The position numbers and the translations under genes were made by a program. Positions 3,661 through 57,304 of a stretch of DNA of 64,000 nucleotides are shown piece by piece. Source of the stretch: Flavisolibacter longurius (GTDB lineage Bacteria > Bacteroidota > Bacteroidia > Chitinophagales > Chitinophagaceae); the NCBI GenBank assembly GCA_013327885.1, contig JABUMY010000006.1, positions 186,001-250,000 on the forward strand. The letters run 5' to 3'. The notes under the pieces were generated by a model. It searched no databases, was not told the DNA's origin, and saw only the letters and a list, made by a program, of their open reading frames with translations. Within the stretch, counting starts at the first letter, position 1; every line of letters starts with the position of its first letter.

Positions 3661-3750
3661 AAGTTCACTTGTTCACGGGTTCGCAAGTTTACGAGTTGAT
3701 AAAAGCAACGGCCAAACTTGTGAACCTGTAAACTTGTGAACTTGTGAACT
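3661..3750. repeat. Octamer tandem repeats in two inverted arms
   Basis: The left arm (3661-3697) is about 4.5 degenerate 8-bp units, starting AAGTTCAC then TTGTTCAC. The right arm (3715-3750) is the inverted unit: AACTTGTG, AACCTGTA, AACTTGTG, AACTTGTG, AACT. Aligning the left arm with the reverse complement of the right gives 27 matches in 36 positions, so the transcript could fold into a long imperfect hairpin with an A-rich loop. It ends 10 bp before the sirtuin start codon and so lies in its leader. Confidence 0.85.
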
Positions 3751-3760
3751 ATATTTAACC

Positions 3761-4453
3761 ATGGGTAAAAAACGTTTGGTGGTGCTAAGCGGTGCGGGTA
3801 TCAGTGCCGAAAGCGGGTTAAAAACCTTTCGCGACAGCGATGGGCTTTGGGAAGGTTACGATATCAACGAAGTGGCCACTGCAACTGCTTGGCGGCGAAA
3901 CCCTGCACTGGTGCAGGAATTTTATAATCATCGTCGTCGGAATGTTAAAGACGCAGAACCCAACGCTGCGCACTTTGCACTTGCTAATCTTGAGAGGGAT
4001 TTTTCCGTACAGATCATTACGCAGAATATCGATGATTTGCATGAAAGGGCTGGCTCAACAAATGTGCTTCACCTGCATGGTGAGATCTTTAAAATGCGCA
4101 GCGAACGATCGGAGCAGCTGATTTATCCCATTTATGATGACATTCAAATGGGTGACCTTGCCGAAGATGGCGGGCAGTTGCGGCCGCATATCGTGTGGTT
4201 TGAAGAACCGGTACCCATGATGGAAGAAGCTGCAAAACAAGTAAGGGAAGCAAACATTTTCCTTATCATTGGCACCTCGCTGGTGGTTTACCCGGCAGCA
4301 GGTCTTGTTGACTATGTGCCGCCGTTTGTTCCCAAATTTGTGGTCGACAAAAAGATCCCTTTTCTCCCAGGCATTCCCAACATCACCGCCATCGAAAAGC
4401 CGGCCACCGATGGCATGAAAGAAGTATTGCCCCTGTTAAAAGAATTGTTGTGA
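3761..4453 (+). CDS. cobB: Sirtuin, NAD-dependent protein deacylase (CobB-like)
   Basis: A 230-aa class III-type sirtuin that removes acyl groups (probably succinyl or malonyl, perhaps acetyl) from protein lysines using NAD+. Visible motifs are GAGISAESG (residues 11-19), TFRDSDGLW, the class III acyl-recognition pair Y55..R58 in FYNHRRR, the NAD-binding TQNIDDLHERAG (87-98), catalytic His106 in LHLHGE and GTSLVVYPA (171-179). Oddly, the protein has no cysteine at all, so the four-Cys zinc site of standard CobB is absent; the segment between HGE and RPHIVWF is shortened and acidic. The start codon follows an unusual inverted octamer repeat. Confidence 0.9.
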   Translation: MGKKRLVVLSGAGISAESGLKTFRDSDGLWEGYDINEVATATAWRRNPALVQEFYNHRRRNVKDAEPNAAHFALANLERDFSVQIITQNIDDLHERAGSTNVLHLHGEIFKMRSERSEQLIYPIYDDIQMGDLAEDGGQLRPHIVWFEEPVPMMEEAAKQVREANIFLIIGTSLVVYPAAGLVDYVPPFVPKFVVDKKIPFLPGIPNITAIEKPATDGMKEVLPLLKELL

Positions 4454-4462
4454 AAAGAAAGC

Positions 4463-5974
4463 TTATAGGGGGCTGGTTTCTTCCGTAAAGAAGATGCCTT
4501 CCGCTTCCAGTTCCTTCAATACTGGTTCGTATATATCCCTGCCAACCGGTATCTGCAATCCTTTGCTGGTGATGGTTCCGTTCAGAATAAGTTTAGTGGC
4601 GGTTGCCAGCGGTAACCCGACGGTTTTCGACATGGCCGTGTGTACGTTATCGTCACCTTTTAACTGCAGCAGCCCGGTTGTTTTATAGACAGCGCCTTCT
4701 TTTTCGTATTCCAGTTCGTGCAGCATTACGATCAGATCTTTGTCCGTTGAATCCAATTTTAATTTTGTCTCCATGCAGAATTGTAATACGTCAGCCATGC
4801 TTGCCTCTTCTTTTTCAAAAACCGTTTTATCGTCATCTAAACCAAGGAAAAACAATTGCTTCAAAGTGAGATTGGCATCGTGCATTTTATCGGCAAGGGT
4901 AGCGGCGGCGTTGATTTTGAGATCATCGATGTCAACATTTTTCAGGTCGCCTTTGTCATCCACCAGCATAAATTCATCTACCTGGTCAATGCCTTTTTGC
5001 GCCGCTTCTTCTTCCAGTTTTACCAGGTTTACTAACTCTGAAAGCAATGATTTTGTCGCGTCAAACTGGTTGTGCAGTTTTTCTTCCAGCCACTGACCAA
5101 AACCAATACTGTCTAGGTGTGATTTAAAGATTTGCTGCAGGGTTTTGCCTCCTGTTTTATAAACCTGCGTTTCATCGGTCAGCTTCAGGTCGACAAGGTT
5201 TTTCCAGCCATACATAAAATCAGGATGCCGAAGCGTTGTACGGATAAAACTGGCCGTTTCTTCCAACCCGTATGTTGGAATGTAACTCAACGAATCGCGG
5301 TTTGGGTACCAGCAAAGGGCTTCCGAGCCAGGCACCACCACGTACCGTTTTTCTTCAAACAGGTCTTCGTATTCCAGTTCCTGTATTGCACCATTCTTTT
5401 TAAAAATGGCACCACTCTTTCCGGCATTCACCACGTTGCGGGGATTCCAACTGATCTTGTAATGCCAGGGATTGTCATCGCTTTCGGGTGCCACCAGGCC
5501 GCCGCAGTGCGAGTAAAATGACGTGATCTTTCCGCCTACGGCATGGATCGCATCTATCATACGTTTGGCACTCATGTGATCGATTCCGGGATCAAGTCCC
5601 ATTTCGCATAAAAAAAGAAGGTTGTTGTTTTCTATTTCTTCTTGCATTTCACGGATGGCGTCGTCGACATAAGAAGCTGTCAGCAGGTTTTTTTTTGCCT
5701 GCAAACAATCCTTTGCTACCAGATAGTGGAGTGCCGCCGGTAAAAGCGAAATGACAATGTCTGCTTTAGCGATTAAACCCATGCGGCCTGCGGAATCTGT
5801 TATGTCAAGCGCAACGGCCGTTGCAAGCGGCGAATTGCCTGTTTTGTCGCGGATGGCTGTTTCGCTAGCGTCTGCCACTGTCAGGTGCCAGTTTTCTTCT
5901 TTTGCATGTTGAAGAAAATATTGGATCAATGCTGTGGAAGATTTGCCTGCTCCGAATAATAAGATTTGCCGCAT
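4463..5974 (-). CDS. Saccharopine dehydrogenase (L-glutamate-forming type)
   Basis: A 503-aa protein resembling yeast Lys9-type saccharopine reductase, which interconverts saccharopine with aminoadipate semialdehyde plus glutamate. It has a Rossmann GAGKSS motif (residues 8-13), GLDPGIDHM (126-134) and the SHCGGL...PESDDNP substrate motif (155-169), followed by the long C-terminal domain. I chose the ATG at 5974; the TTG at 6007 would add 11 unlikely residues, and a -7-like promoter element lies 75 bp upstream. In Bacteroidota this family may serve lysine catabolism. Its 3' end is only 9 bp from the convergent sirtuin gene. Confidence 0.87.
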   Translation of the reverse strand: MRQILLFGAGKSSTALIQYFLQHAKEENWHLTVADASETAIRDKTGNSPLATAVALDITDSAGRMGLIAKADIVISLLPAALHYLVAKDCLQAKKNLLTASYVDDAIREMQEEIENNNLLFLCEMGLDPGIDHMSAKRMIDAIHAVGGKITSFYSHCGGLVAPESDDNPWHYKISWNPRNVVNAGKSGAIFKKNGAIQELEYEDLFEEKRYVVVPGSEALCWYPNRDSLSYIPTYGLEETASFIRTTLRHPDFMYGWKNLVDLKLTDETQVYKTGGKTLQQIFKSHLDSIGFGQWLEEKLHNQFDATKSLLSELVNLVKLEEEAAQKGIDQVDEFMLVDDKGDLKNVDIDDLKINAAATLADKMHDANLTLKQLFFLGLDDDKTVFEKEEASMADVLQFCMETKLKLDSTDKDLIVMLHELEYEKEGAVYKTTGLLQLKGDDNVHTAMSKTVGLPLATATKLILNGTITSKGLQIPVGRDIYEPVLKELEAEGIFFTEETSPL

Positions 5975-6048
5975 AGTAGATGGTTCTGAAAAAAAGGAAT
6001 AACACAATGAAGACTATGGTGTGTCTGCCATAGCACTTACTGTAGCTT

Positions 6049-6056
6049 CAAAAATA
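6049..6056 (-). promoter_or_regulatory. Candidate Bacteroidota -7 element (TATTTTTG)
   Basis: An exact TAnnTTTG match on the minus strand, 75 bp upstream of the saccharopine dehydrogenase ATG. No convincing -33 TTG was found at the usual spacing. Confidence 0.4.
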
Positions 6057-6582
6057 GGTGCTGAGGACGTTATTTGCAGAAACCATTTCTTGCGTATTTT
6101 TCATGCTGCTGGAGAAAGCAATTTGAGTTCTATTTAAAAATTGTAAACAGCGTTCTGTTAGATGTAGTTGTGGCCTTGCGTTATGTAATGGCAAGCTGGT
6201 AAAAAATTAGGCTGAAAAAATTTGCTGTCTTTCATTTGCGGTCAGATGTTACGTCAGGTTGTTTTCCACATTTTGTCTCCCCAAAAGGTGGAGCCAAAAA
6301 TTCAAGGCGGCTCCAACGCTCCGCTTGATTTGCCAGGGCTGGCGCACAACAGTCTTTCATTACGGGTTGCACTTTTCACGTTGTGAGCAGACTTTCTTTT
6401 CAATTTTTTGTCTTCACTACACATTGCCTGAAGCAATTATATCTACCGGCCTATAAAGCAAGAAACTGCAAGCGCTATATTGCGCTATTCTTTTCTTACA
6501 ACAAACGGAAACCTTAGCTATTGCGCAATAAGGCGCTGCACCAATGGGCGAAGTGAAATGGTAGGAACGGCTGTTCTCTCAT

Positions 6583-6617
6583 TTGAGAATTGAACATTGA
6601 GCATTGCTTATTGAAAA
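6583..6617. repeat. Five heptamers, unit TTGAnnA
   Basis: Five contiguous 7-bp units in phase: TTGAGAA, TTGAACA, TTGAGCA, TTGCTTA, TTGAAAA. They lie 28 bp beyond the 3' end of the minus-strand GYF-like gene. Degenerate, non-coding. Confidence 0.8.
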
Positions 6618-6645
6618 TTTTTACCTGCAGTTATAGAACCCAATA

Positions 6646-7767
6646 TTACCCTTCAATTTTTACCACCTTGTAACGAACACTCACGCCGCGGCTATTGTCG
6701 GGAACAGGAACCGTTTTTGAACTGCCCGGAGCGATACCGGAAACCGTAACGGTTTGGGTACCCACCACTTTGCCGTTGGGACGCAAAAATTCAACTTCTA
6801 CAACTGCTTTGCTGATTTCCCGCGACGATGGATTGGTTACCGAAATATGAAGGTTGCTGATACCACCTAAAAAACCAACGTTGTACTGGTTGGCTGCTAA
6901 CCGCAAAGACGGTTCTGGCGATGTTTTTTCTGCTTCTTCCGTTTTCGCTGATTTGATTTCGTCTTCTTCATTTTGCTGCTGGGAAAGATTAACGGATGCT
7001 TCATCCAATTCTTTTTCTGTAGTGTTTTTTGTCGGCTCTTCTGAAACATTTGATTCTTCAACCGCCGGCTTATGCGCTTTTGGAGATCTTTCGGTAACGA
7101 TTGCTTTGGCTGCAACGGCTGTTTGCTCAGCTGCTTTTGCCTGAACTGGAGCATCAGTAGTTTCTTGGACCATGTTTGCCTTTTCAGGTGAAGCCACCAT
7201 ACCGGCAAAGGCAGCATGGGCCACCGTGCTTTTGGGTAAAGTTTCTGAACCAATTTCGGTGGCTTCCGCCGAGGCAATCACCGGTTCAAACTCCATATTC
7301 TCTACGGCTTTTTTTATCATGTAAGCCGAAAGTCCCAACCCAATAAACAGGGTTACCAATCCCATTAGGTTGGCGCCTACATTTACCTGCCGCTTCCATA
7401 CTTTTTTTTGTGGCGGCTTTTGGGCATATTTTTCTTTAAGGGCTTCAAATGAGGGTGGGGCGTAATCTTCAGGTGGTAAAAATGATTGAATTTCTTCCGT
7501 AGTTGCAGGTGACAGACTGGCGCTGCTATTTGCAAAAGCCACTTCGTCTATGCGTTCCGTTGGCGGCTTTTTTTTAGGAACCGCTTTGGTCTTTTTCGCC
7601 ACCAGTTTTATGCCACTGAGCGCCTCAATTTCACCGGGCAGCTTCCAGCTTTTACTTTCGTCTTCCACCCAGAACAAGTCAGTTGTGTACAGGGTTTTTT
7701 CCTTTAATTCGGTCAGTGTATACGGACCGGTTTCCTGGTTGTCCCGAAGGAGAAAGTAGCGCACCAT
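6646..7767 (-). CDS. Membrane protein with GYF_2-like N-terminus and FxLYD-like C-terminus
   Basis: A 373-aa protein. Residues 1-55 resemble a GYF_2 domain (YFLLRDNQETGPYTLTEL, then W in LFWVEDESKSWKLP). A basic/Pro linker is followed by one membrane segment at about 131-151 (GANLMGLVTLFIGLGLSAYM), then about 130 residues of Ala/Glu/Lys/Thr-rich low-complexity stalk. The C-terminal 85 residues form an FxLYD-like immunoglobulin-type domain (LHISVTNPSSREISKAVVEVEF). The arrangement suggests a cytoplasmic proline-rich-ligand binding domain linked across the inner membrane to a periplasmic beta domain. Specific function unknown. Confidence 0.72.
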   Translation of the reverse strand: MVRYFLLRDNQETGPYTLTELKEKTLYTTDLFWVEDESKSWKLPGEIEALSGIKLVAKKTKAVPKKKPPTERIDEVAFANSSASLSPATTEEIQSFLPPEDYAPPSFEALKEKYAQKPPQKKVWKRQVNVGANLMGLVTLFIGLGLSAYMIKKAVENMEFEPVIASAEATEIGSETLPKSTVAHAAFAGMVASPEKANMVQETTDAPVQAKAAEQTAVAAKAIVTERSPKAHKPAVEESNVSEEPTKNTTEKELDEASVNLSQQQNEEDEIKSAKTEEAEKTSPEPSLRLAANQYNVGFLGGISNLHISVTNPSSREISKAVVEVEFLRPNGKVVGTQTVTVSGIAPGSSKTVPVPDNSRGVSVRYKVVKIEG

Positions 7768-7919
7768 AGCAAAATCACTTTTACGTATACAGCAAATACT
7801 GAAAATACTGTGCCTGTTCTTTTCAACAACAAATGAACATTAACACCCTCTTGGTAAAGATTAGGCCAATTTGTCACGCCAAACGCTGCTTTTTATCCTG
7901 ATTTTAAGGGGAAAAAAAG

Positions 7920-7927
7920 TAGATTTG
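7920..7927 (+). promoter_or_regulatory. gyrA promoter -7 element (TAGATTTG)
   Basis: An exact TAnnTTTG match 31 bp before the gyrA ATG, the expected place for a short leader. The -33 region is A/T-rich but has no clear TTG. Confidence 0.55.
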
Positions 7928-7958
7928 CACACCTTTAATTTGAGTTTAAGTACACAGA

Positions 7959-10586
7959 ATGGAAAATAATTTACAACCCCAGGAAACTGCTGATTTCAAC
8001 CGCATTATTCCGATCAACATCGAAGAGCAAATGAAGACCGCTTACATCGACTATTCGATGTCGGTGATCGTGGGTCGTGCGCTGCCCGATGTGCGGGATG
8101 GTTTGAAGCCGGTACACCGCCGCATTTTGTTCGCCATGAATGAACTGGGCATGGGGCACAGCAAACCGTATAAGAAAAGTGCCCGTATCGTGGGTGAGGT
8201 TTTGGGTAAATACCACCCGCACGGCGATACAGCGGTATATGACGCCATGGTGCGGATGGCCCAGGAATGGAACATCCGTTACCCCTTGATTGATGGACAG
8301 GGAAACTTTGGATCGCAGGATGGTGACGGGCCGGCGGCCATGCGTTATACGGAAGCCCGTATGACCAGGCTGGCCGAAGCCATGCTCCAGGATATTGAAA
8401 AAGACACGGTAGATTTTGGTCTCAACTTCGATGACTCGCTGAAAGAGCCCACCGTTCTTCCCACCCGCATTCCGCAGTTGCTGGTCAACGGTTCCAGCGG
8501 TATTGCCGTGGGTATGGCTACCAACATGCTGCCCCATAACCTCATTGAAGTGGTGGACGGCTGCGTGGCCTATATCGACAACCGTGAGATCACCATTGAC
8601 GAACTGATGCTGCATGTAAAAGCACCGGACTTCCCCACGGGTGGTTCTATTTACGGCATGGAAGGCGTAAAAGCCGGCTACAATTTCGGTCGCGGTCGCG
8701 TGGTCTTGCGTGGCAAGTTGCATGTGGATACAAAACCCAGTGGCCGTGAGCAGATCATCATCACCGAAGTACCTTACCAGGTCAACCGAGACTCGCTTTG
8801 TAACCGCATTGGCGAACTGGTGAATGACAAAGTGCTGGAAGGCATTGCCCACATCAACAACGAATCCAACAACAAAGAAGGTACCCGCGTGGTGCTGGAC
8901 CTGAAACGCGATGCCGTTGCCAACGTGGTCATCAACCAGTTATACAAATACACCGAGCTGCAAACCAGCTACGGTATCAACAACGTGGCCATTGTAAAAG
9001 GCCGCCCGAAGATCCTGAATCTGAAAGATCTGATCTCTGAGTTTGTTGAGTTCCGTCACGAGGTGGTTTACCGGCGTACACAATATGAGCTGCGGGAAGC
9101 CGAGAAGCGGGCCCACATCTTACAGGGTTACCTCATTGCCCTGGATCACCTGGATGAGGTGATCGCCCTGATCCGTGCTTCGGCCAACCCCGAGATTGCA
9201 AAAGACAACCTGGTAAATGCCGGCTGGGGACTGGACGAGATCCAGGCAAAAGCCATTCTTGAATTGCGTTTGCAGCGCCTTACCGGCATGGAACGCGAAA
9301 AGATCAAGCAGGAATACGATGAGCTGATGAAGCTGATCGCACACCTGAAAGAAGTGCTGGCTAATGAAGGCATGCGCTACGACATTATCAAAACAGAACT
9401 GGCCGAGGTAAAAGAAAAATTTGGCAATCCCCGTAAATCAGAGATCACCTTCCTCGATAATGAGGTTAGCATAAAAGACCTGATCAAGGAAGAAGACGTG
9501 GTGATCACCATCTCGCATCTTGGTTATATCAAACGTACGTCGGCATCCGATTACCGTGCACAACGCAGGGGTGGTCGTGGTGTAATGGGTGGCAAAACAA
9601 GGGAAGAAGATTATATCGAGCACCTCTTTGTTGCAAGCACCCACCATACCATGCTTTTCTTTACGGAAAAAGGCCGCTGTTACTGGCTGAATGTGTACCA
9701 GATCCCGGAAGGAGAGAAGAACAGCAAGGGCAGGGCTATTCAAAACCTGTTGCAGATCTCCCCGGATGATAAAGTAAGAGCCATCATTGACATTAAAGAC
9801 CTGCAGGATGCCGATTTTGTGAACAGCCATTACATTGTGCTGTGTACGCAAAAAGGTGTCATTAAAAAGACTGCACTAGCCGATTTTAGCCGTCCGCGTT
9901 CGACCGGTGTCAATGCCGTTACCATTGTAGAAGGCGACCAGTTGCTGGAAGCCAGGCTTACCGATGGTGCCTGCGAGATCATGCTGGCTATCAATTCGGG
10001 CCGCGCCATTCGCTTCCCCGAATCAAAAGTGCGTTCAACAGGCCGTGGCGCCATTGGCGTAACTGGCATCGAGGTTGAAAACGAAGGCGAAGAGGTAGTT
10101 GGTATGATTTGTGTTAATCCCGAATCACAAAAGGATAGAACCGTTCTGGTCGTCAGTGAAAAAGGATATGGAAAAAGAACACCGGTTGACGAATACCGTA
10201 TTACCAACCGGGGAGGAAAAGGCGTAAAAACCATTTCGGTTACCGAGAAAACCGGTAAACTTGTAGGGATGGTTGATGTGTCGGAGAATGAAGACCTGAT
10301 GATCACCTGCAGAAGCGGTATCACTATCCGCATGAAAGTAGGGGCTATCAGCGAGCAGGGAAGGGCCACCCAAGGTGTTAAATTGATTCGAATTGAAGAG
10401 GGGGATGCCATTGCCGCGCTGACAAAACTGGACGAAGAGGATGAAGAATTATTGACGACAGAGGAAGGAGAAGCCACGCCTGTCACCGATGGAGAAACAG
10501 GAACCGCAGCGGAGAATAACGAAACGGAAACAACCAATTCACCGGAAAATACATCTGAAGGAGAGCAGGAAGCTCCAAACGCTTAA
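7959..10586 (+). CDS. gyrA: DNA gyrase subunit A
   Basis: An 875-aa breakage-reunion subunit of type II topoisomerase that, with GyrB, introduces negative supercoils using ATP. The catalytic tyrosine is Y130 in AMRYTEARM. The quinolone-resistance region reads [10 protein letters not shown], with T91 and D95 at the positions of E. coli S83 and D87, which gives no sign of a classic resistance change. The GyrA box QRRGGRG (535-541) marks it as gyrase rather than topoisomerase IV ParC. The C-terminal beta-pinwheel is complete, and about 45 residues of acidic Glu/Thr-rich tail follow. The next gene begins 22 bp downstream. Confidence 0.98.
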
Positions 10587-10608
10587 AATTTAAAAAAATC
10601 TAAAAACG

Positions 10609-11865: not shown

Positions 11866-11886
11866 GCGATAAATTATTTCCTATAC

Positions 11887-11915
11887 AAAGCCGTCACAAG
11901 TTGACGGCTTTTTCT
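11887..11915 (+). terminator. Terminator after the gyrA-TPR unit
   Basis: A 10-bp perfect stem (11887-11896 with 11902-11911), loop CAAGT, followed by a T-rich tract. It is placed between the TPR gene and the convergent DeoR-family gene. Confidence 0.88.
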
Positions 11916-12022
11916 TTTGCCGGGACGACGTGAATTCGGTAAGTAGTGAGAACTAAAGCTTATTCTTACTTCAGAAGGAAAACGCGTTTCAATGGTCCAT
12001 TTTAAAGAAACAATTGGAAAAT

Positions 12023-14202: not shown

Positions 14203-14238
14203 CAGAAGCATAAACCAAGGATTCTAAAACTGATAGGA

Positions 14239-15069: not shown

Positions 15070-15159
15070 AGGCATGCAATCCTATTAATCCCTGGTTTTT
15101 TCATTACTCAGTAACATGGTTTTTGTATCAATGAAAACTCTTTTTTCAAGGCAACTCAT

Positions 15160-15189
15160 CCAATATCCCACTATCCAATATCTTACTAT
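15160..15189. repeat. 15-bp direct repeat, two copies
   Basis: CCAATATCCCACTAT and CCAATATCTTACTAT in tandem (13 of 15 identical). Located 31 bp before the TauE/SafE start codon. Internally it shows near-heptamer phasing. Confidence 0.75.
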
Positions 15190-15219
15190 CATCTCTCCGA
15201 AGGCTTACTTTCGCGTTTT

Positions 15220-17193: not shown

Positions 17194-17200
17194 CGGCTGA

Positions 17201-17235
17201 TGGTGAATGGTCAGTGGTGAGCGGTTAGTGGTGAG
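17201..17235. repeat. Five heptamers, unit TGGTGAG
   Basis: In-phase units TGGTGAA, TGGTCAG, TGGTGAG, CGGTTAG and TGGTGAG, beginning 8 bp after the App1-like stop codon. The same unit recurs at 25770-25797. Confidence 0.85.
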
Positions 17236-17429
17236 TTTGGGCCGCTTTATTTCTAAGCTTTCTCAGATCGGTTGTGGTAGTTTGAATTCTGCCTTTTTTT
17301 ACAAATATTTTTTTTAACAATGCTTGTATCAAACGACAAGCTATAACCGGTAATTCCCCTTCCGAAACAGAATGGGATAATCTCGTAAGATGTCTACGGA
17401 AAAGTCATTTTTCTGTTGGCGTGTTCTTC

Positions 17430-19030: not shown

Positions 19031-19051
19031 ACAATTGGTAAACTCACATGC

Positions 19052-25739: not shown

Positions 25740-25770
25740 ACCAACCCCGGTCCCGGGGTTGGTCTTTTTT
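25740..25770 (+). terminator. Terminator after susC-susD
   Basis: A GC-rich near-perfect palindrome (arms 25740-25750 and 25753-25763) followed by six T residues. Confidence 0.9.
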
Positions 25771-25797
25771 GGTGAGTGGGCAATGGTGAATGGTGAG
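25770..25797. repeat. Four heptamers, unit TGGTGAG
   Basis: Units TGGTGAG, TGGGCAA, TGGTGAA, TGGTGAG in phase, starting at the end of the terminator T-run. The same unit as at 17201-17235, 8.5 kb away. Confidence 0.85.
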
Positions 25798-48454: not shown

Positions 48455-48526
48455 CATAAAGGATCTGTTTCCAACCTTTGTGCTCACGTCTTTCTTTCCG
48501 TTTATCCAACCTTCAACAAACGCATT

Positions 48527-50416
48527 ATGCAACAACTAACAGCCAGGTTTACCCTATTTTTTAGCCTGCTTTTTTTATCGGCGCCACTGCTGTATGCACA
48601 GCAAAGCGTGGGCATCAACAACGATGGCAGCCAGCCGCACACCAGTGCCATGCTGGACGTAAAAAGCACAACTAAAGGTTTCCTGGCACCACGTGTCACA
48701 GCAGCGCAGCGCCAGGCGATCCTTGCACCGGCAGCCGGCTTACTGGTGTATGAAACCACTTCCAATGCTTACTGGGTTTTTAACGGAACCGTTTGGGTGC
48801 AGTTAGGCGGGGGCGGGGGTGGCAGCTCGCAATGGTCCCTCAATGGAAATCATATTTATAACAGCAACAGCGGAAATGTAGGCATAGGACTTTCCAACGC
48901 CGAAGAAAAATTGCATTTGGTGGGCAACATGCGGATCAATAACCTGAACCCTACGTTACAGTTTCAGCAGGCAGCCGTGGATAAAGGTTACCTGCAGCTT
49001 TCGGGCAGCAACCTGCGGCTGGGCACCAATGCCGGCAACAACCTCGGCAACCTGATCATCCGTATGAACGGCCAGGACCGCGTTTTTGTTGACAGCACCG
49101 GGAAGGTAGGTATCGGTACCACAACACCAGGCTCTTTGCTTGAAGTTGGCGGCGAGGTGTTTTTAAATAGTCCGGGACCCAAACTGAAATTTAAAAGAGG
49201 TGGCACCATCCTCGATTTTACCTCGATTGATTTTTTAAACAGTGCCAACGAAGTAAAGTTTCGCTTTTTAGAAGGCGGTACAAGCTTCAAGCTAGGAAGA
49301 CCCAACAGTTTTGGCATTTATGATGATGTTGCCATCAGCAATGCCAACGGAAATGTGGGCTTTGGAACGGCTCCGCATGCATCGGACAGGATCTATTCGG
49401 ATGGTTCCATCCGCATGACCGGCCCGGCAAAGATCATCCGTTTTGAAACGCAGCAAGGCGGCACGGCATCGGGCAACATTACATCAACAAAATGGGCGCC
49501 TGGCATTCATTTCATCCGGGCGGCTGGCGATATACTCGGCAAGATGGAATATGTAGATACCATAGATGTTGCCAACTTCCTTCGTTTTCACACGGGCAGT
49601 ACGCCATCCAACGACCTGACGATCGATACCGATCACCTTGTGGGTATTGGCACCAGTAACCCGCAGGCCAAGCTCCATATCCACGGAGGTGCCGGCGACC
49701 AATTGCGTATACATGCCGTCAGTGATCCCATCATCCAGTTTACAGAAGGTTTTTTGGGCGCACAGGAAAAAATGGGTTTTATCCAGATCTCGGGTGAAGA
49801 CCTGCGCCTTGGCACCAACTCGGGAAATGCAAACGGAAAATTTATTGTTCGCAACAATGGCGGCGATCGTTTTTCCATTGATCATGTAGGCCGTGTAGCC
49901 ATTAACATGAATGCCAGCGGTGAAGCCATTCGAATGAACGGTGTGGACCCGGCCATCAATATTTACCAAAGTGGCGTACAAAAATCGTATTTATGGCAAA
50001 CGGGGAATCACCTCCGCATCGGCGTGAGTGACCCTGCCGGAAAGATCATCGTCACCAGTAACCAGGTAGAGATTGGCACCTCCATTCCCTTGCCCGATGG
50101 GTATAAGCTGGGTGTTGGCGGCAAGGTGCTTTGCGAAGAATTAAAGGTAAAGCTGCAAAGCAGTTCCTGGCCCGACTATGTTTTTGAAAAACATTACCGC
50201 CTGCGGCCCTTAGCAGAAGTGGAGCAATTCATCCGTACCTACAAGCACCTGCCGAACATTCCCGCCGCAAAAGACATCGAAGCCAATGGCATGGAAGTAG
50301 GAGAGATGCAGCGGAAGATGATGGAAAAGATTGAAGAGCTGACGCTGTATGTGATCGAACTGGAGCGAAAATCGCAGGCATTACAAACGCGGTTGAATAA
50401 ACTTGAAAACAAATAG
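48527..50416 (+). CDS. Secreted tail-fibre-like repeat protein
   Basis: About 629 aa from the ATG at 48527, which opens a signal peptide (MQQLTARFTLFFSLLFLSAPLLYAQ in pieces). An N-terminal region common in Bacteroidota (SAMLDVKSTTKGFLAPRVT) is followed by Gly/Asn-rich repeats built on NVGIGT-like and LRLGTN.G motifs; segments near residues 150-200 and 415-465 are clearly duplicated. The C-terminus has YVFEKHYRLRPLAEVEQFI...HLPNIPAAKDIE and a coiled coil, like phage tail-fibre ends. Likely a trimeric surface or adhesin-type protein. It overlaps the frame of the next gene only slightly. Confidence 0.82.
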   Translation: MQQLTARFTLFFSLLFLSAPLLYAQQSVGINNDGSQPHTSAMLDVKSTTKGFLAPRVTAAQRQAILAPAAGLLVYETTSNAYWVFNGTVWVQLGGGGGGSSQWSLNGNHIYNSNSGNVGIGLSNAEEKLHLVGNMRINNLNPTLQFQQAAVDKGYLQLSGSNLRLGTNAGNNLGNLIIRMNGQDRVFVDSTGKVGIGTTTPGSLLEVGGEVFLNSPGPKLKFKRGGTILDFTSIDFLNSANEVKFRFLEGGTSFKLGRPNSFGIYDDVAISNANGNVGFGTAPHASDRIYSDGSIRMTGPAKIIRFETQQGGTASGNITSTKWAPGIHFIRAAGDILGKMEYVDTIDVANFLRFHTGSTPSNDLTIDTDHLVGIGTSNPQAKLHIHGGAGDQLRIHAVSDPIIQFTEGFLGAQEKMGFIQISGEDLRLGTNSGNANGKFIVRNNGGDRFSIDHVGRVAINMNASGEAIRMNGVDPAINIYQSGVQKSYLWQTGNHLRIGVSDPAGKIIVTSNQVEIGTSIPLPDGYKLGVGGKVLCEELKVKLQSSSWPDYVFEKHYRLRPLAEVEQFIRTYKHLPNIPAAKDIEANGMEVGEMQRKMMEKIEELTLYVIELERKSQALQTRLNKLENK

Positions 50417-50433
50417 TGCTTCAACCAGAGCTT

Positions 50434-53067
50434 ATGAAAAAGTTGATTCCCATTTCATTTATTCTCCTTGCTGTTTTCCTGTTACCGTACATTGGCTTTT
50501 CGCAAGGCAAGCTTCCCAAAGAAATAAAGGAACAGGTCAATAGAAAAAGCTTTTACGAAGCAAAAAACACTATCGAGAACTATTATAAAAACAGCATCAA
50601 CCGGGCACGTACCGCTGATCCTTTAGAAGGCAAATTGCTGCTTCGGCAACGCAAGCGGCTGAACCGTCATTTTTATATGGCAGAAGGACGATTAAATGCA
50701 AATGGACAGGCAGAAAACAACACAAAAAAGATCTATGATTATTTAACCGCCAGCGCTACCATGCGAACGGAAGCGGCATCGGGCGACTGGTCGCTGGTTG
50801 GTCCGACTTACGTGGAGTATGGCGTGGGCCGCATCAACCGCCTTGCATTTCATCCCACCAACAGCCAAAAGCTCTATGCCGGAAGTGCCGGCGGTGGTTT
50901 GTTCGTTTCGGATAACGGGGGTTTATTCTGGACAAACGTTGCAGGTTTTATGCCCTCGCTTGGCATCTCCGGCATCGTGGTTAGTCACGCCAATGGAAAT
51001 GTGATCTATGTACTGACAGGTGACGGTGACGCCTTGTCGGGTGAAGGCCTTAACTTTACGTTTGGATATATCCGTTATTCCGTTGGAGTTTTGAAATCCA
51101 CCGATGGCGGCGTTAGCTGGCAAAAAACAGGGGACTTGCCGGGGCTTGCAGACAAACGGTATGCAGGCATGAAACTGATACAGGATCCCAACAATGCAAA
51201 CGTATTGTTGGCAGCTACCTCGCACGGCCTTTATCGTACCACCAATGGTGGGAACACATGGACACTTAGCAACCTGCCGGGTAACGATTCTACGATGGTT
51301 TATGATATTGAATACAGGCCCGGAAGTTCCACATCGGTGTATGCCAGCATCCGGCGCGACAACGTCGAAGCCGACGGGCAGTTTGTGCTTTCAAATAATG
51401 GTGGTGCTTCCTTTACACAGGGTTCGGTATTCAGTCCCAACGTATTCACCAATGTAGAGCGAATTGAGATTGGCGTAACACCCGCTGACCCCAGTGTAAT
51501 TTACCTGGTTGCCGGACCGGGCACGTCCACCTCTTACCGCGGTGTCTGGCGTTCTGCAGACAATGGCGCCAACTTTACCCGGCAGCACAATACGCCAAGT
51601 GTATTAAGAGCATCTGGAGCAGACATCCTGGATCAAAATATGTACGACCTGGCCATAGCGGTATCACCCCGGTCTGCTGCCACCGTACTTACCGGTGGGC
51701 TCGTGGTATTTCGCTCCACCAATTCAGGCAGTATTTTCTTCCAGGCAACTGGTTACCACGGCGATCCATACATTCACCCCGATATTCACGACCTGGCCTA
51801 CAATCCGCTCAACGGCCGACTGTATGCAGCTACTGATGGCGGTGTGGCTTCCAGTGGAGACAATGGGCTTACCTGGACAAAACATTTTGCCGGTCTAAGC
51901 TGTACGCAGTTTTATCATTTTTCGCTGCAGGATGATGGGGGAGACCTTTGGGGCGGCACGCAGGACAATGGCATTTTGATACAGGATGGCCTTTCTACGA
52001 CATTTGAACGTTACCATAGTGGCGACGGCTTTGATGTGTTGACCGATATGGCGCCTGCCGGTAACCAGGACGATAAATATTTTTCCGTGAACGAAAAAGT
52101 GTATGCCGATGCCACGCCGGACGTTGACATTACGCCACCGGGTTCGGATAACTTTTTTGCCAACCTTGGCATGCATACACAGGACGAGGATGTTATTTAT
52201 GCCGGTTATGAAAACCTTTACATCAGCTACAACCGGGGCGATGACTGGTCTTCCGTACTTATCGGGAGTGATTTTGTTCCGGGCAACTGGGCGCTGGAAA
52301 CCTGCCCCAGCCTTTCTACACGGATCTATACTGCAGGACGAAATGGTTCACGCCGGGGTCTTTTCCGGTTGGATGGCATAGGAATAAAAACGGAAGCCAG
52401 GCAATTAAACATGGGGCCTGCTTATTCGGGTGACAAGATCACGGATATTGCCGTTCATCCTGCCAATGCCAGCCGGGTCTGGATAACCGTTGGCGGTTAT
52501 GCCGCGAACAGCAAAGTTTTTTACAGTTCGGATGGCGGAGTTAACTGGACAAACTGGAGCAATAGTCTGCCCAATTTGCCAGTGAACTGCATTGTGGCTG
52601 ATGAAAATGGAAATGTTTACATAGGCACGGATGTGGGTGTTTATTACAGGGGGAGTGGCAACCCGGAATGGACGCCATTTTACAATAAATTGCCCCGTGT
52701 GGCGGTAACAGAGTTGGAGTTGTTGAAGGTTGGTGGCATTAGCGTTTCGTTGTTTGCCTCTACATTTGGCCGTGGCATCTGGAAATCGTCCGTTTTTTCC
52801 TCCTGCACATCTACGCTGACTGTTTCTTCCCATTTACAGGGACAACAATTTTTCCAGGCCGGCAACACCTTAACAACAACCTCGTTGGTAAATGGCGCAG
52901 CGGGAACCAATGTCTTTTTCAAAGCAGGTACGTCGGTATCATTTACACCGGGATTTACCGCGGTGGCCGGCACAGAAGTAAGAGCCTTTATTGGTCCGTG
53001 CAATGCCGGTGGCGTACCGGCAAAGATCATTGCCATCCCGGCAACAACAGAACAACCGGTACAATAA
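50434..53067 (+). CDS. Secreted BNR/sortilin-like beta-propeller with 3-coathanger stack domain
   Basis: About 877 aa from the ATG at 50434 (a GTG at 50416 overlaps the previous stop). Signal peptide about 1-23, an N-terminal helical region, then repeated propeller blades with the pattern STDGGVSW, TTNGGNTW, SADNGANF, SSDGGVNW typical of BNR/VPS10-like folds. Residues about 800-860 match a 3-coathanger stack domain (FFQAGNTLTTTSLVNGAAGTNVFFKAGTSVSFTPGF in pieces), common in secreted Bacteroidota proteins. No canonical type IX C-terminal signal was recognised. Probably cell-surface; substrate or ligand unknown. Confidence 0.82.
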   Translation: MKKLIPISFILLAVFLLPYIGFSQGKLPKEIKEQVNRKSFYEAKNTIENYYKNSINRARTADPLEGKLLLRQRKRLNRHFYMAEGRLNANGQAENNTKKIYDYLTASATMRTEAASGDWSLVGPTYVEYGVGRINRLAFHPTNSQKLYAGSAGGGLFVSDNGGLFWTNVAGFMPSLGISGIVVSHANGNVIYVLTGDGDALSGEGLNFTFGYIRYSVGVLKSTDGGVSWQKTGDLPGLADKRYAGMKLIQDPNNANVLLAATSHGLYRTTNGGNTWTLSNLPGNDSTMVYDIEYRPGSSTSVYASIRRDNVEADGQFVLSNNGGASFTQGSVFSPNVFTNVERIEIGVTPADPSVIYLVAGPGTSTSYRGVWRSADNGANFTRQHNTPSVLRASGADILDQNMYDLAIAVSPRSAATVLTGGLVVFRSTNSGSIFFQATGYHGDPYIHPDIHDLAYNPLNGRLYAATDGGVASSGDNGLTWTKHFAGLSCTQFYHFSLQDDGGDLWGGTQDNGILIQDGLSTTFERYHSGDGFDVLTDMAPAGNQDDKYFSVNEKVYADATPDVDITPPGSDNFFANLGMHTQDEDVIYAGYENLYISYNRGDDWSSVLIGSDFVPGNWALETCPSLSTRIYTAGRNGSRRGLFRLDGIGIKTEARQLNMGPAYSGDKITDIAVHPANASRVWITVGGYAANSKVFYSSDGGVNWTNWSNSLPNLPVNCIVADENGNVYIGTDVGVYYRGSGNPEWTPFYNKLPRVAVTELELLKVGGISVSLFASTFGRGIWKSSVFSSCTSTLTVSSHLQGQQFFQAGNTLTTTSLVNGAAGTNVFFKAGTSVSFTPGFTAVAGTEVRAFIGPCNAGGVPAKIIAIPATTEQPVQ

Positions 53068-53557
53068 ATAGAAAATTGTTGGCAGAAAGGTCAACTTTCA
53101 ATATTTCCTAGTGCAGAATGGCCATGATGTTACTTAATGCATGGCTATTCTTTATTGTATCGATTAGCATTGATAGAATTTGCTTGGATGGATTTGCTGT
53201 AGATAATTGAAACTTACATTCAACGTTATTCTCATTCGATCACTTTTTCATCGTAGCAACCAGTTTACCAATCGGTTAAATTATTTACCGCCTCATTCGT
53301 TCAACTTCGATTCACTGGAGTGGATAGCAGAGCCAATCGATCAATCTCTCCAGCTCCGCTTGCAAAAGAAATCAAGCTATTTGGAGCACTTCTTTCTCTC
53401 GTAAAAGGAAATTTCCGGCTCCATGCCTTTCCACCTAAATTCAATTGAAATCAGCCCCCACGCTAATTCTGGTTAAGAATCGGAATGCCCATGATTGTAG
53501 TACAAAAAGGATAACGTATTTTCCGGCAACGTATCAAAACAAACGTTCCGTTGTAAA
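53068..53557. other. Intergenic region of about 490 bp
   Basis: No gene, terminator or exact -7 element seen. A 65-codon frame (53207-53404) lacks recognisable features and was not called. It is A/T-rich and serves as the upstream region of the arabinose locus. Confidence 0.5.
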
Positions 53558-54709
53558 ATGAAAAAACTGGTCCCGTCAACTACGCTTTTGCTTGCAGGTA
53601 CACTCTTCCTTTTTTCCTGCAATAACAGTGATGATAAGAGCACAACAGCCGACAGCACAGAGGCGCCCAAATCCGCTGCCGTTGTAGCACAACCCTGGGG
53701 CGAAACCGATGGCAAAGCCGTGCAGTTGTTTACGCTTACCAACAGAAAAGGCGATGAAGTCAAGATCACCAATTATGGTGGTATCGTTACATCTTGGCTC
53801 ACCCGCGACAAGGAAGAAAAGCAAAGTAACGTAGTGATTGGATACGACAGCCTGCAGGGCTACCTGGCAAAGCCACCATATTTCGGCGCCATCATTGGCC
53901 GCTACGGCAACCGCATTGCCAACGCAAGTTTTGCGCTGGATGGAAAAACCTATAAACTGGCCGCCAACAACGGGAAAAATAGCCTGCATGGCGGTGAAAA
54001 AGGATTTGACAAAGTGGTTTGGAATGCGGCACCATCCAATGATTCATCCACACTGACACTTACCTACCTGAGTCCTGATGGCGAAGAAGGTTTCCCCGGC
54101 AATCTCAAAACAACGGTGAAGTACACACTAACAGACGATAACGAGCTGCTGATCGAATACGAAGCGGAGACTGACAAAGCGACGCCGGTAAACCTCACCA
54201 ATCACAGTTATTTTAACCTGACGGGAGACGCGGGCAAATCCATTCTTGACCACAAGCTTTGGATTGATGCCGACAACTACACGCCTGTTGATGCGGGCCT
54301 GATACCTACCGGAAAGATTGTTCCGGTTCAGGGCACACCGTTTGACTTCACCGAAGCCAAAAAAATCGGCGAACGCATTGGCAATGTTCCCGGCGGCTAC
54401 GACCACAACTTTGTATTGAACGACAATGCCACCAACCTGAAGCTGGTTGCCTGGCTGCAGGATTCGGTAAGCGGCCGTAAGTTGGAAGTGTTCACCACAG
54501 AACCGGGACTGCAGTTTTACTCCGGTAACTTTTTGGATGGCACGCTGCAAAACCGCGATGGAAAGAAGATCGGCAAGCACAACGCACTTTGCCTTGAGAC
54601 CCAGCATTTTCCCGATTCACCCAACCAGCCGTCGTTTCCCACTACTATTCTGCAACCGGGACAGAAATACAAAACAACAACGCGGTACAAGGTATCCGTT
54701 GAAAACTAA
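53558..54709 (+). CDS. galM: Exported aldose 1-epimerase (mutarotase) lipoprotein
   Basis: A 383-aa mutarotase that interconverts alpha and beta anomers of aldoses. A lipoprotein signal ends at C21 (LFSC), so it acts outside the inner membrane. The GalM core has GRYGNRIANASF, NGKNSLHGGEKGFDK, the catalytic His in LTNHSYFNL and the catalytic Glu in CLETQHFPDSPNQPSFP. It is the first gene of the araBDA-GH127 series on the same strand (69 bp before araB) and likely speeds anomer change of released sugar before uptake. Confidence 0.94.
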   Translation: MKKLVPSTTLLLAGTLFLFSCNNSDDKSTTADSTEAPKSAAVVAQPWGETDGKAVQLFTLTNRKGDEVKITNYGGIVTSWLTRDKEEKQSNVVIGYDSLQGYLAKPPYFGAIIGRYGNRIANASFALDGKTYKLAANNGKNSLHGGEKGFDKVVWNAAPSNDSSTLTLTYLSPDGEEGFPGNLKTTVKYTLTDDNELLIEYEAETDKATPVNLTNHSYFNLTGDAGKSILDHKLWIDADNYTPVDAGLIPTGKIVPVQGTPFDFTEAKKIGERIGNVPGGYDHNFVLNDNATNLKLVAWLQDSVSGRKLEVFTTEPGLQFYSGNFLDGTLQNRDGKKIGKHNALCLETQHFPDSPNQPSFPTTILQPGQKYKTTTRYKVSVEN

Positions 54710-54778
54710 GGACGCTTTATTTGCAATCTTGTCGACAGGAAAAGGCAAGGTTTAACGACAAAAAATTTCATTCAAGCA

Positions 54779-56506
54779 ATGACAACAAACGCAGCCTATG
54801 TGATCGGTGTGGATTATGGCACCGATTCTGTTCGATCGATCATTGTTAACGCCGGCACCGGGGAAGAAGTGGCCGCTTCTGTTTTTGCTTACCCGCGGTG
54901 GAAACAGGGACTTTATTGCGATGCATTGGAAAACCAATTCCGCCAGCACCCGCTCGATTACATCGAAGGATTGGAAGACACCATCCGCCGTTGCCTTTTG
55001 CAGGCCGGGCCACAAGTGGCCGCGGGCATCAAAGCCATTTCCGTTGACACCACGGGCTCAACACCGGTGGCGGTTGACAGCACCGGCACACCGCTATCGC
55101 TGCTGCCGCAGTACAGCGAAAACCCCAACGCCATGTTTGTGCTCTGGAAAGATCACACAGCAGTGAAAGAAGCGGCCGAGATCAACCAGCATGCAGAAGG
55201 ATTTGACACCAACTACCTGCAATATGTTGGCGGCATTTATTCATCGGAATGGTTTTGGGCCAAGCTGCTGCATGTGCTGCGGGAAGATGAGTCTGTTCGG
55301 GCCGCCATTCATTCCTGGGTAGAGCACTGCGACTGGATACCTTTTGTACTGACGGGTGGCAAAGAGGCAGCTGAATTAAAGAGAGGGGTTTGCGCTGCGG
55401 GACACAAATCGCTTTGGAGCGAAATCTGGGGCGGATTGCCACCCAATGATTTTTTTGCGGCGCTTGATCCCGTGCTGGATGGGTTTACCGAAAAGCTTTT
55501 CAATAAGGTTTATACATCGGCCGAAAAGGCCGGCACCATCAGCGAAGAATGGGCCACAAGGCTTGGTCTACCCAATGATGTGGTGATCGGCATTGGTGCC
55601 TTTGATTGTCACATGGGTGCCGTGGGCGGACAAATCGAGCCCTATTATCTCAGCAAAGTAATGGGCACCTCTACCTGCGACATGCTGGTAGCGCCGCCCG
55701 GTGAAGTGGGTAGCACCCTGGTGCAGGGCATCTGCGGGCAGGTGGAAGGTTCGATCATTCCCGGCATGGTAGGCATGGAAGCAGGACAGTCGGCTTTCGG
55801 TGATGCTTATGCGTGGTTTAGCCGTGTGCTGGCCTGGCCGGTGCAGCACCTGCTGGCACAATCCGAGGTGATAGATGCCGTTACCGCACAAAAGCTGGTG
55901 GAAGAAACTACGGCGAGGCTTCTCCCTGAACTCAGCAAAGCAGCCGCCCAATTACCGGTTGAAGATGACAGCGAGGCTGCTCTCGACTGGATCAATGGTC
56001 GCCGTACACCGGACGCTAACCAGGAATTGCAGGGTGCTTTTTCCGGCCTGAACATGGGTACCGATGCGCCACGACTATTCCGTGCGTTGGTGGAAGCCAC
56101 CTGTTTTGGTGCAAGAGCCATCGTGGAGCGTTTCCAGGAGCAAGGAATCCCGGTAAAAGGACTCATTGGTCTTGGCGGTGTGGCGAAAAAATCGCCTTTC
56201 ATCATGCAGATGATGAGTGATGTGATGAACATGCCCATCCGCATTCACCGCTCTGAACAAACCTGTGCCCTCGGGGCGGCCATGTTTGCCGCTACCGCGG
56301 CCGGTATCTATCCAAAAGTGGAAGACGCTATGCAGGCCATGGGACAAGGCTTCGACGCGGAATACAACCCTGATCCTGAAAAGGTTCCGCTCTATGCAAA
56401 ACGATACGAGCAATACAAAGCTTTTGGTAACTACATCGAAGGCCAAACCACTCAACCTCAAACTTCTAACATCGAACCTCAAACACAACTGGAGACCATC
56501 GCATGA
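54779..56506 (+). CDS. araB: Ribulokinase
   Basis: A 575-aa FGGY-family kinase that phosphorylates L-ribulose to L-ribulose 5-phosphate. Visible are the ATP-binding start GVDYGTDSVRSIIVNAGTG, ISVDTTGSTPVAV, WKDHTAVKEAAEIN, MGTSTCDMLV, the VGMEAGQSAFGDAYAWF motif and the C-terminal GLGGVAKKSPFIMQMMSDV. The last about 20 residues (GQTTQPQTSNIEPQTQ, then LETIA) are a Q/T/P-rich tail encoded by a heptamer repeat (56444-56485) and have no family counterpart that I recognise. It overlaps araD by 4 bp (ATGA). Confidence 0.96.
   Translation: MTTNAAYVIGVDYGTDSVRSIIVNAGTGEEVAASVFAYPRWKQGLYCDALENQFRQHPLDYIEGLEDTIRRCLLQAGPQVAAGIKAISVDTTGSTPVAVDSTGTPLSLLPQYSENPNAMFVLWKDHTAVKEAAEINQHAEGFDTNYLQYVGGIYSSEWFWAKLLHVLREDESVRAAIHSWVEHCDWIPFVLTGGKEAAELKRGVCAAGHKSLWSEIWGGLPPNDFFAALDPVLDGFTEKLFNKVYTSAEKAGTISEEWATRLGLPNDVVIGIGAFDCHMGAVGGQIEPYYLSKVMGTSTCDMLVAPPGEVGSTLVQGICGQVEGSIIPGMVGMEAGQSAFGDAYAWFSRVLAWPVQHLLAQSEVIDAVTAQKLVEETTARLLPELSKAAAQLPVEDDSEAALDWINGRRTPDANQELQGAFSGLNMGTDAPRLFRALVEATCFGARAIVERFQEQGIPVKGLIGLGGVAKKSPFIMQMMSDVMNMPIRIHRSEQTCALGAAMFAATAAGIYPKVEDAMQAMGQGFDAEYNPDPEKVPLYAKRYEQYKAFGNYIEGQTTQPQTSNIEPQTQLETIA
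56444..56485. repeat. About six heptamers, unit TCnAACn, inside the araB 3' end
   Basis: In-phase units CTCAACC, TCAAACT, TCTAACA, TCGAACC, TCAAACA (56451-56485) preceded by CAAACCA. They are translated as the AraB C-terminal tail. Confidence 0.8.
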
Positions 56507-57210
56507 GTCGCTACGAATCCATAAAACAGGCTTCCTATGAAGCCAATATGCAATTGCCAAAGCTTGGCCTTGTTCTTTACACTTTTGGCAATGTGAGTGC
56601 CGTTGACCGCACCGAAGGCGTGTTTGCCATCAAACCGAGTGGTATTCCTTACGAAGACCTGACACCGGAAAAAATGGTGGTGGTGGATTTTGACGGCTTT
56701 ATTGTGGAAGGCAACCTTCGTCCTTCTTCCGATACGGCAACCCATGCTGTGCTGTACAAACACTGGGAAAAGATCGGTGGCATTGTACACACGCATTCGA
56801 CTTACGCCACTGCCTGGGCGCAGGCGCAGCGTGACATTCCCATTTTTGGCACCACCCATGCCGATCACAACACCGTTGACATCCCCTGTGCGCCACCGAT
56901 GGACGACAGCATGATCGAAGGCGATTATGAATACCAAACCGGTTTCCAGATCATGAATCACTTCACCGAAAAAGGCCTGAGTTATGAAGAAGTGGAAATG
57001 ATCCTTGTCGGCAACCATGCACCGTTTACCTGGGGTAATTCACCTTCCAAAGCCGTGTACAACAGTGCCGTACTGGAGCAGGTGGCCCACATGGCGTTTC
57101 TTACCGAAAGGATCAACCCATCGGCACCACGGTTAAAAGATGCCCTCATTAAAAAACATTTTGAACGCAAGCACGGCCCGCACTCTTATTACGGGCAGTC
57201 GGGGACGTGA
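56503..57210 (+). CDS. araD: L-ribulose-5-phosphate 4-epimerase
   Basis: A 235-aa class II aldolase-fold zinc enzyme that converts L-ribulose 5-phosphate to D-xylulose 5-phosphate. Zinc ligands H96 and H98 lie in GGIVHTHST, the phosphate-binding motifs are GNVS and KPSG, and RPSSDTATH carries the conserved Asp. VGNHAPFTWG holds the third His. Start ATG overlaps the araB stop (ATGA), indicating translational coupling. The TGA stop lies within the first unit of a 7-bp repeat array. Confidence 0.97.
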   Translation: MSRYESIKQASYEANMQLPKLGLVLYTFGNVSAVDRTEGVFAIKPSGIPYEDLTPEKMVVVDFDGFIVEGNLRPSSDTATHAVLYKHWEKIGGIVHTHSTYATAWAQAQRDIPIFGTTHADHNTVDIPCAPPMDDSMIEGDYEYQTGFQIMNHFTEKGLSYEEVEMILVGNHAPFTWGNSPSKAVYNSAVLEQVAHMAFLTERINPSAPRLKDALIKKHFERKHGPHSYYGQSGT

Positions 57211-57304
57211 AACGTGAGACGGGAAACGAAAAACGTCACACGTCGAACGTAAAACGTAAAACGGTAAACGGTAAACGGGAAACAGAAAACTGTAAACGAA
57301 ACAA
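57207..57304. repeat. Fourteen tandem heptamers between araD and araA
   Basis: A run of 7-bp units ending mostly in AAAC, all in phase: GTGAAAC, GTGAGAC, GGGAAAC, GAAAAAC, GTCACAC, GTCGAAC, then GTAAAAC twice, GGTAAAC twice, GGGAAAC, AGAAAAC, TGTAAAC, and a final partial unit. It starts on the araD stop codon and ends 31 bp before the araA ATG. Purine-rich on the plus strand. Confidence 0.92.

Follow-up and report, generated by a model that had tools for sequence, protein, structure and literature searches.

Short-period arrays of 7 and 8 nucleotides at gene ends in a Chitinophagaceae genome, and their possible origin by re-copying in place

A 64-kb stretch of DNA (positions 186001-250000 of contig C49 in G000, a 5.75-Mb genome of 52 contigs; hereafter the window) raises the question of why tandem repeats with a period of seven or eight nucleotides (nt) recur at its gene junctions. 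A sequence-only reading of this stretch had proposed a widespread set of mainly 7-bp intergenic repeats. The results showed that intergenic heptamer and octamer arrays do exist here and exceed the scale first described, even though some of the arrays listed at the outset are weak. The best explanation, to which we give a probability of about 0.37, is that they are fast-turnover, often quasi-palindromic repeats made in place by iterative re-copying with a 7-8-nt step.

A wider sample of 1.264 Mb comprised the window together with the opening 400 kb of each of three further contigs, C11, C33 and C22. Gene calling relied on a simple hexamer model built for this analysis, which gives approximate gene edges, and arrays were detected by a lag-match self-score, at periods 7 and 8 for the window and over intergenics of at least 25 nt for the sample. 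Period-7 arrays (lag-7 score of at least 9) were present in 132 of 882 intergenics against 3.5 after shuffling, and period-8 arrays (lag-8 score of at least 9) in 43 against 2.0, so that repeat density lies far above that of shuffled intergenic sequence and the proposed set extends to 8-bp units. Lags 14 and 16 gave matches in 122 and 39 of the 882 intergenics; lags 6, 12, 15, 18 and 20 were slightly elevated (16, 7, 10, 11 and 10 versus 4.5, 1.5, 4.5, 3.5 and 3.0 when shuffled), and every other lag was close to noise. At score 14, the lag-7 segments found in 864 kb were 53 intergenic versus 5 coding. A score of at least 10 yielded the set used below, i.e., 185 arrays in 145 of the 882 intergenics.

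The window itself contains the following features.

57205..57297, plus strand: ACGNNAR heptamer array of 13 full units in the araD-araA spacer; period 7, score 38.5; clear.
17200..17236, plus strand: TGGTSAR-type heptamer array beginning 6 nt past a stop, between convergent genes; score 12.5; clear.
3662..3697, plus strand: 5' arm of an octamer hairpin (NNGTTYAC type), from the inverted-arm alignment; fold z-score (z) -7.5.
3715..3750, minus strand: 3' arm of the octamer hairpin, AACTTGTG octamers, 10 nt ahead of a gene start; period 8, score 18; clear.
15158..15190, minus strand: 15-nt repeat (7+8) that precedes a gene start by 29 nt; score 13.
6583..6606, minus strand: heptamer array reading CAATNNT on that strand, about 40 nt from a stop; score 9.5; marginal.
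25770..25796, plus strand: TGGTGAR-like array directly past a terminator-like hairpin; Tandem Repeats Finder score 33, lag score 8 (25782-25796); weak.
56454..56484, minus strand: heptamer periodicity in the 3' coding end of the ribulokinase gene; score 9.0; weak and not intergenic.

Among the 43 intergenics of the window, 4 scored at least 9 (0.35 shuffled) and 3 at least 12 (0.015 shuffled), an excess smaller than that of the wider sample, and Rfam at gathering scores gave no match in the window. Five heptamer arrays in exact phase had been listed at the outset; those at 57207 and 17201 are clear, the one at 6583 is marginal, and those at 25770 and 56444 are weak. The octamer array placed at 3661 is carried by the period of 8 at 3715-3750, whose inverted partner lies immediately upstream and, taken alone, reaches a lag-8 score of just 7; the 15-bp repeat at 15160 was recovered with period 15. 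Placement at gene junctions applies generally, but the array listed at 56444 sits in the last codons of ribulokinase, and the C-terminal peptide encoded there is partly retained in the sister species, Flavisolibacter longurius BT320 (G058; tblastn). The 17200..17236 array is absent from the equivalent junction of that species and 6583..6606 is without a counterpart in it. The araD stop codon (TGA, 57208-57210) falls within the first unit of the 57205..57297 array. The gene downstream of the octamer hairpin is Sir2 deacylase-like, with a score under the curated cut-offs.

The units of these arrays share an architecture. Greedy clustering produced 24 heptamer and 13 octamer clusters, some single-member; the 14 reference families used here were chosen by the analyst, some being neighbouring, and 13 of the 185 arrays stayed unassigned. 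Throughout each family the same columns are almost fixed (the core) and the others variable, with adjacent units agreeing at 0.95-1.0 in some columns and down to 0.18-0.5 in others, and heterogeneity between columns was positive in 91% of 145 arrays. The homogeneity within each array that the sequence-only reading had described is a property mainly of the core columns. At variable columns neighbouring units are weakly alike (exceeding independence by 0.107 at lag 1 and by about 0 at lag 4), and in some of these columns the similarity of neighbours falls below independence. An impression by eye, gained from a few long arrays, that units drift along arrays in a fixed order was abandoned, five order tests giving 2:1, no cases, 5:5, 4:0 and 7:6. 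A phase-variation microsatellite does not fit well, the units being imperfect at fixed columns and mostly intergenic, and G-quadruplex formation as a common principle was rejected because a G-quadruplex motif occurs in just 1 of the 185 arrays.

The araD-araA array allows the origin of this diversity to be asked of a single case. It is absent at the junction in 10 of the 11 relatives in which both flanks were found (absent in G004, G005, G006, G007, G009, G023, G025, G031, G003 and G019), so a gain in the G000 lineage is most likely and the array is probably young; G023 has about two similar units there, and G020, of another genus (L059, G020:C2), carries heptamers of a different family directly past the stop, together with an inverted partner. 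Mismatch between unit pairs of the G000 array averages 0.705 in the two most variable columns versus 0.112 in the four least variable, a contrast that slippage plus decay did not reproduce, simulated decay from a perfect array reaching it in 0 of 1500 runs at each of five ages. Across the sample, arrays found in G000 only are as diverse at variable columns as those shared with the sister species (0.482 versus 0.383). Given these failed simulations and the diversity of the G000-only arrays, the variable-column diversity seems to have been made with the array, or else imported from a mixed unit pool. These results bear on ordinary simple-sequence slippage followed by point mutation and filtered by selection against insertions in genes, which we disfavour as improbable. 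Over-representation of heptamers in bacteria has been noted since 2007 and polymerase slippage is the published guess for it (PMC4692102), exact-unit length changes occur between species, and eleven identical TGTAGTT units at C11:21255-21349, the top-scoring array listed, suggest that plain slippage acts too; what such slippage leaves unaccounted for is the near-absence of other periods, the column-specific diversity of a probably young array, and the inverted pairing and polarity described below.

Spacers between convergent genes carried arrays most often (44 of 152) and those between divergent genes least often (15 of 180), the co-directional layouts giving 45/308 and 41/242. The near edge of an array fell from -10 to +10 nt around a stop codon in 70 cases versus 28 under random placement (positions within the spacer plus 25-nt flanks); for starts, 19 edges lay at 10 nt or less versus 16.2, with 13 versus 3.4 in the 5-10 nt bin. 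On the strand read inward from the nearest gene edge, G exceeds C in 76 of 94 stop-near arrays and C exceeds G in 10, the figures for start-near arrays being 21 and 7 of 30; arrays more than 30 nt from the stop edge show the opposite bias (9 G>C versus 16 reverse, n=25). The stop codon frequently lies within the array itself, and the stops adjoining arrays (TAG 34, TGA 27, TAA 21; n=82) may be set beside those of all called genes (TAG 226, TGA 256, TAA 575; n=1057). In a pairwise count of polarity, in which most arrays had no partner inside 300 nt, TGGTSAR pairs were convergent rather than divergent by 24 to 0 (89 arrays, 80 GTDB loci), 14 to 1 (99 arrays, 80 IMG/VR loci) and 5 to 0 (22 arrays, G000). 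ACGNNAR pairs gave 7 to 0 in G000 (19 arrays) and 8 to 12 in 98 arrays of 80 IMG/VR loci, and because of this last count inward polarity is not universal.

Arrays were compared with those of the sister species (DNA identity 68-89% where compared, median protein identity 85%), whose similarity suggests that the host is a Chitinophagaceae close to Flavisolibacter. Among 171 orthologous junctions both species have an array at 19, G000 only at 16, the sister only at 8 (27 sister junctions bearing arrays altogether) and neither at 128, and the 19 shared junctions compare with 5.5 expected under independence. Length differences of exactly 7 and 21 nt separate the species, as losses, and at L126 an entire hairpin was seen in the sister only. 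One or both species carry an array at 43 junctions, and from these six at which one unit family has replaced another at a fixed site were picked by eye (C11:26209, 39176, 39765, 103473, 350355 and 375313); spacer identity is 0.47 at C11:350355 and 0.44 at C11:375313, about the level of unrelated sequence. Many sites thus keep an array between the species, but at a few the unit family has changed, with inverted arms remaining. The active generating process that had been suggested from the window alone gains support from these signs of speed, namely gains and losses against the sister, exact 7- and 21-nt changes and family replacement. Core columns carry 26/297 changes versus 49/238 in variable columns, at 12 of 32 sites picked for an identity of at least 0.75; detection of an array in one of two species itself lowers the core rate, so purifying selection on cores is not claimed. 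At these 12 well-aligned shared sites, chosen for identity, variable columns differ between orthologues at 0.206 versus 0.224 in the remaining spacer. An array excess in every relative was rejected, as there is little or none in 80 kb of G003 (period 7 in 2/48 spacers versus 0.5 shuffled) and in one 160-kb piece of F. longurius (2/97 versus 1.0).

Many arrays are paired in inverted orientation. A partner in the same spacer (score at least 14) was found for 55 of 184 arrays versus 2.6% in the spacers of other arrays, direct partners at score 14 in the same spacer were found for none of the 184, and 129, including the window's largest (57205..57297), were without an inverted partner at that score. 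Both edges bear arrays in 33 spacers, and closely similar inward units were found in 10 of these, against a mean of 2.5 and a maximum of 8 in 2000 permutations. At variable columns the two arms do not agree with one another more closely than unrelated members of their family do (0.708 versus 0.718; 59 arrays), and the idea that they are mutual copies was rejected on this ground. When six chosen stretches were folded, z lay between -3.8 and -7.5 for the five whose arms are paired and was -2.4 for the unpaired araA array; of 18 spacers folded in both species, z -2 was reached by just 12 in G000 and 13 in the sister, some of these containing an ordinary terminator. At C11:350355 and C11:375313 both species have inverted arms (scores 15.8-20.8) that 0 of 60 shuffles per spacer reached in any of the four spacers. 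The G000 arms at C11:39176 were matched by 1 of 60 shuffles, and at C11:26209, 39765 and 103473 the arms of one species were matched by 2, 6 and 2 of 60.

These pairs suggest another explanation, in which the arrays are functional hairpins whose structure is selected and whose sequence is free, the arms forming an RNA stem (for 3' end protection, attenuation or an operon-internal stem) or a DNA stem, and tandem units letting the arms pair after a register shift. Repetitive extragenic palindromic (REP) sequences and bacterial interspersed mosaic elements (BIMEs), with their REP-associated tyrosine transposases (RAYTs), are extragenic imperfect palindromes that prefer 3' ends; the G000 arrays, of which 55 of 184 have an inverted partner, may be comparable to them in these respects, but their sites have no common sequence and they do not appear to track Y1 transposases. 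What favours functional hairpins is the conservation of array sites together with the keeping of arms through family replacement at the two clear sites (C11:375313 and C11:350355), and the excess of inverted over direct partners, the ranking of convergent over divergent spacers and the folding of the five paired-arm stretches agree with it. Set against this are the many unpaired arrays, the indifferent match of arms at variable columns, the modest number of folding spacers, the three sites at which shuffles also reached the arms, the patchiness that a unit family can show within a genus (74 versus 0 matches), ortholog rates that yield no clear proof of constraint, and a unit vocabulary common to many phyla, which such selection leaves unexplained. 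We consider this explanation, the main rival of re-copying in place, possible yet rather unlikely.

For re-copying in place, we infer the following course. The end of DNA under synthesis, on the inward strand, which is mostly G/T-rich and runs 5' to 3' away from the gene, would slip back 7-8 nt repeatedly and re-anneal through a 4-6-nt anchor, the core; the next 1-3 nt would be filled at low fidelity and so become the variable columns. The inverted arm may stem from fold-back of the array, or from the same process acting from the opposite side. Selection would purge arrays from genes and promoters, so that the survivors begin at stop codons, the array often supplying the stop, and the enzyme may be a general DNA polymerase and not a dedicated one. 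Several observations sit badly with this course. Paired arms belong to one family while differing in their unit letters, and the same unit words recur across many phyla, neither of which slipping and re-annealing explains; arms flank a terminator kept in both species (judged by eye); dating by outgroups covers the araD-araA array only; no dedicated enzyme was found among those looked at (Ku, RVT_1, Y1); and no report of such position-specific errors was found in the literature searched. The TGGTGAG family also has a shared unit order between loci, two other families show a slight excess of near-identical pairs, and the longest exact match to another spacer has a median between 14 and 24 nt and a maximum between 17 and 31 nt, depending on the family, which makes some copying between spacers likely.

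Such matches and shared order, together with genome-specific dialects of units, are what would be expected of selfish or gene-conversion dispersal, in which core columns are needed for mobility and units are shuffled from a mixed pool. We hold this to be improbable as the general cause: in the other six of the seven families tested, mean agreement in unit order between loci equals that of random unit draws, Y1 transposases do not appear to track the arrays, and the araA array has no near-identical source, its longest exact match in 1.2 Mb of other sequence being 15 nt and its best other matches in the whole genome 78% over 86 nt, 82% over 67 nt and 94% over 32 nt.

The sequence-only reading had further suggested a linked reverse-transcription or repair enzyme. 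Among 147 genomes of the family, Ku is present in 66, Y1 in 107 and RVT_1 in 51, and none of the three distributions tracks TGGTSAR arrays, so this linkage was rejected; the comparison marks array genomes by that one unit family, and genomes rich in other families score negative. Ku occurs in 22 of 40 genomes with TGGTSAR matches versus 44 of 107 without; the nine richest genomes have RVT_1 in 4, Ku in 6 and Y1 in all 9, and the congener G143, without TGGTSAR matches, has 4 Y1 matches, these counts covering Y1 transposases as a whole with the RAYT subfamily not separated. G000 has three Ku genes (C6:151403, C33:320420 and C4:81078); of the other Ku-positive genomes two have two and 63 have one. 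These distributions bear on telomerase-like or reverse-transcriptase-templated addition to broken ends, followed by head-to-head joining. The G-rich strand does run inward on both sides and some units are telomere-like (C49:172632), but RVT_1 and Ku are missing from several of the nine richest genomes, and several array centres keep homologous terminators between species (by eye), as a fusion point would not; we regard this origin as very improbable. Telomere-like repeats were observed right past stop codons at C49:172632 and C33:5740 (GTTAGGGGTTTGGGGTTAGG; GGTTAA hexamer run).

The unit words reach far beyond the genus. The phrase TGGTGARTGGTCAGTGGTGAR, for which we estimate a chance expectation of about 1, is present in at least 92 stretches of GTDB contigs, 80 of them listed; among the matches listed are Chitinophagaceae, other Bacteroidota, Chloroflexota, Alphaproteobacteria, Gallionella, Methylococcaceae, Zixibacteria, Acidobacteriota, Gemmataceae, Chlorobiota and Clostridia, many of the sources being metagenome-assembled genomes in which contigs may be misbinned. 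After masking of the found sites, 21 non-Bacteroidota loci, selected for carrying TGGTGARTGGTCAGTGGTGAR, had period-7 arrays in 10 of 66 spacers versus 0 shuffled. Three successive TGGTSAR units occur in 40 of 147 Chitinophagaceae genomes, and two congeneric species have 74 and 0 matches. In G000 the TGGTSAR pattern gave 124 matches versus 17 for the reversed pattern, which can match arrays themselves and so is not an independent control; ACGNNAR gave 173 versus 0, is present in 21 of the 147 genomes, and in G111 gave 55 versus 23 reversed. Tentatively, and with more doubt than belief, we propose that an undescribed process of DNA writing is common to bacteria of many phyla. It would advance by a constant 7-8-nt step, anchor itself on the core and write the variable positions anew, acting inward from both sides of the spacer; the same sites would be rewritten again and again with new unit families, and the geometry of the inverted arms would persist. 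Array motifs were also seen in viral-classed contigs of IMG/VR (L229-L308 and L349-L428, at least 120 stretches each). Elsewhere, a Zixibacteria locus (L114:7343) has TCCTRTY units, a family of its own with a similar look; Oscillochloris (L135:5042-5640) has G-rich octamer arrays and then C-rich ones; and an acidobacterium (L163:6524-6605) has a TTGGACC array followed by its inverted form.

Heptameric repeats have been described before, in cyanobacteria, Xanthomonas, Beggiatoaceae and five Bacteroidetes (PMC4692102, PMC4679880), and some longer-unit repeats are reported to be over-represented in prokaryotes (PMC4060949, PMC12699852). According to PMC4692102, the heptamers of Xanthomonas (GGGAATC) and Nostoc (GGGGA(C/T)T) lie on the coding strand near stops, which some of them overlap, and on the non-coding strand near starts; an inverted pair is shown, and in two Xanthomonas mostly the same gene pairs enclose them, although they vary in length and sequence. 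The G000 arrays are like them in their 7-nt intergenic tandem units, in the same positional and strand rule and in the same gene pairs being occupied in relatives, so that the cyanobacterial parallel, first drawn as a loose one, holds and is closer than that, the positional rule being already reported. They differ in that the paper describes one G-quadruplex-forming unit type, whereas G000 has about 14 families of 7 and 8 nt, with a fixed core and variable columns and with family replacement at a site; runs of three GGGAATC or GGGGAYT were absent from 1.41 Mb on both strands. TAACTGA repeats, with stops in all frames, are reported from Beggiatoaceae, Cyanobacteria and five Bacteroidetes (PMC4679880). 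Those are intergenic tandem heptamers too, but the same source describes a single unit, in its main species mostly just upstream of starts and with related heptamers rare; the G000 arrays adjoin stops instead, as counted above, and no run of three TAACTGA was found in 1.41 Mb. In having more than one short tandem heptamer per genome, G000 resembles Calothrix, with its short tandemly repeated repetitive (STRR) heptanucleotide sequences (PMC4692102). A limited full-text literature search found no description of the multi-family architecture of core plus variable columns, which leaves its absence from the literature unproven. Stop-adjacent inward heptamers are already known; what distinguishes G000 is that many kinds coexist and are quickly replaced. 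With many arrays in about 14 families and a sister species to compare, the cause of the heptamer excess becomes testable. If it is true that the diversity is written at birth, new non-coding DNA and new stop codons at gene ends would have an origin that has so far gone unrecognised.

Clustering of arrays along the contigs gave P 0.02 for C11, 0.14 for C33 and 0.34 for C22. The stretch C11:160000-320000 is array-poor, with 5 arrays per 160 kb and a GC content of 0.445-0.462 in its final 60 kb, and is perhaps partly acquired DNA. A separate dispersed repeat was observed at C11:45664-45710 and C11:369110-369166 (L011:5664-5710 and L027:9110-9166); 29-33 nt of it recur at 100% identity at several sites in F. 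longurius.

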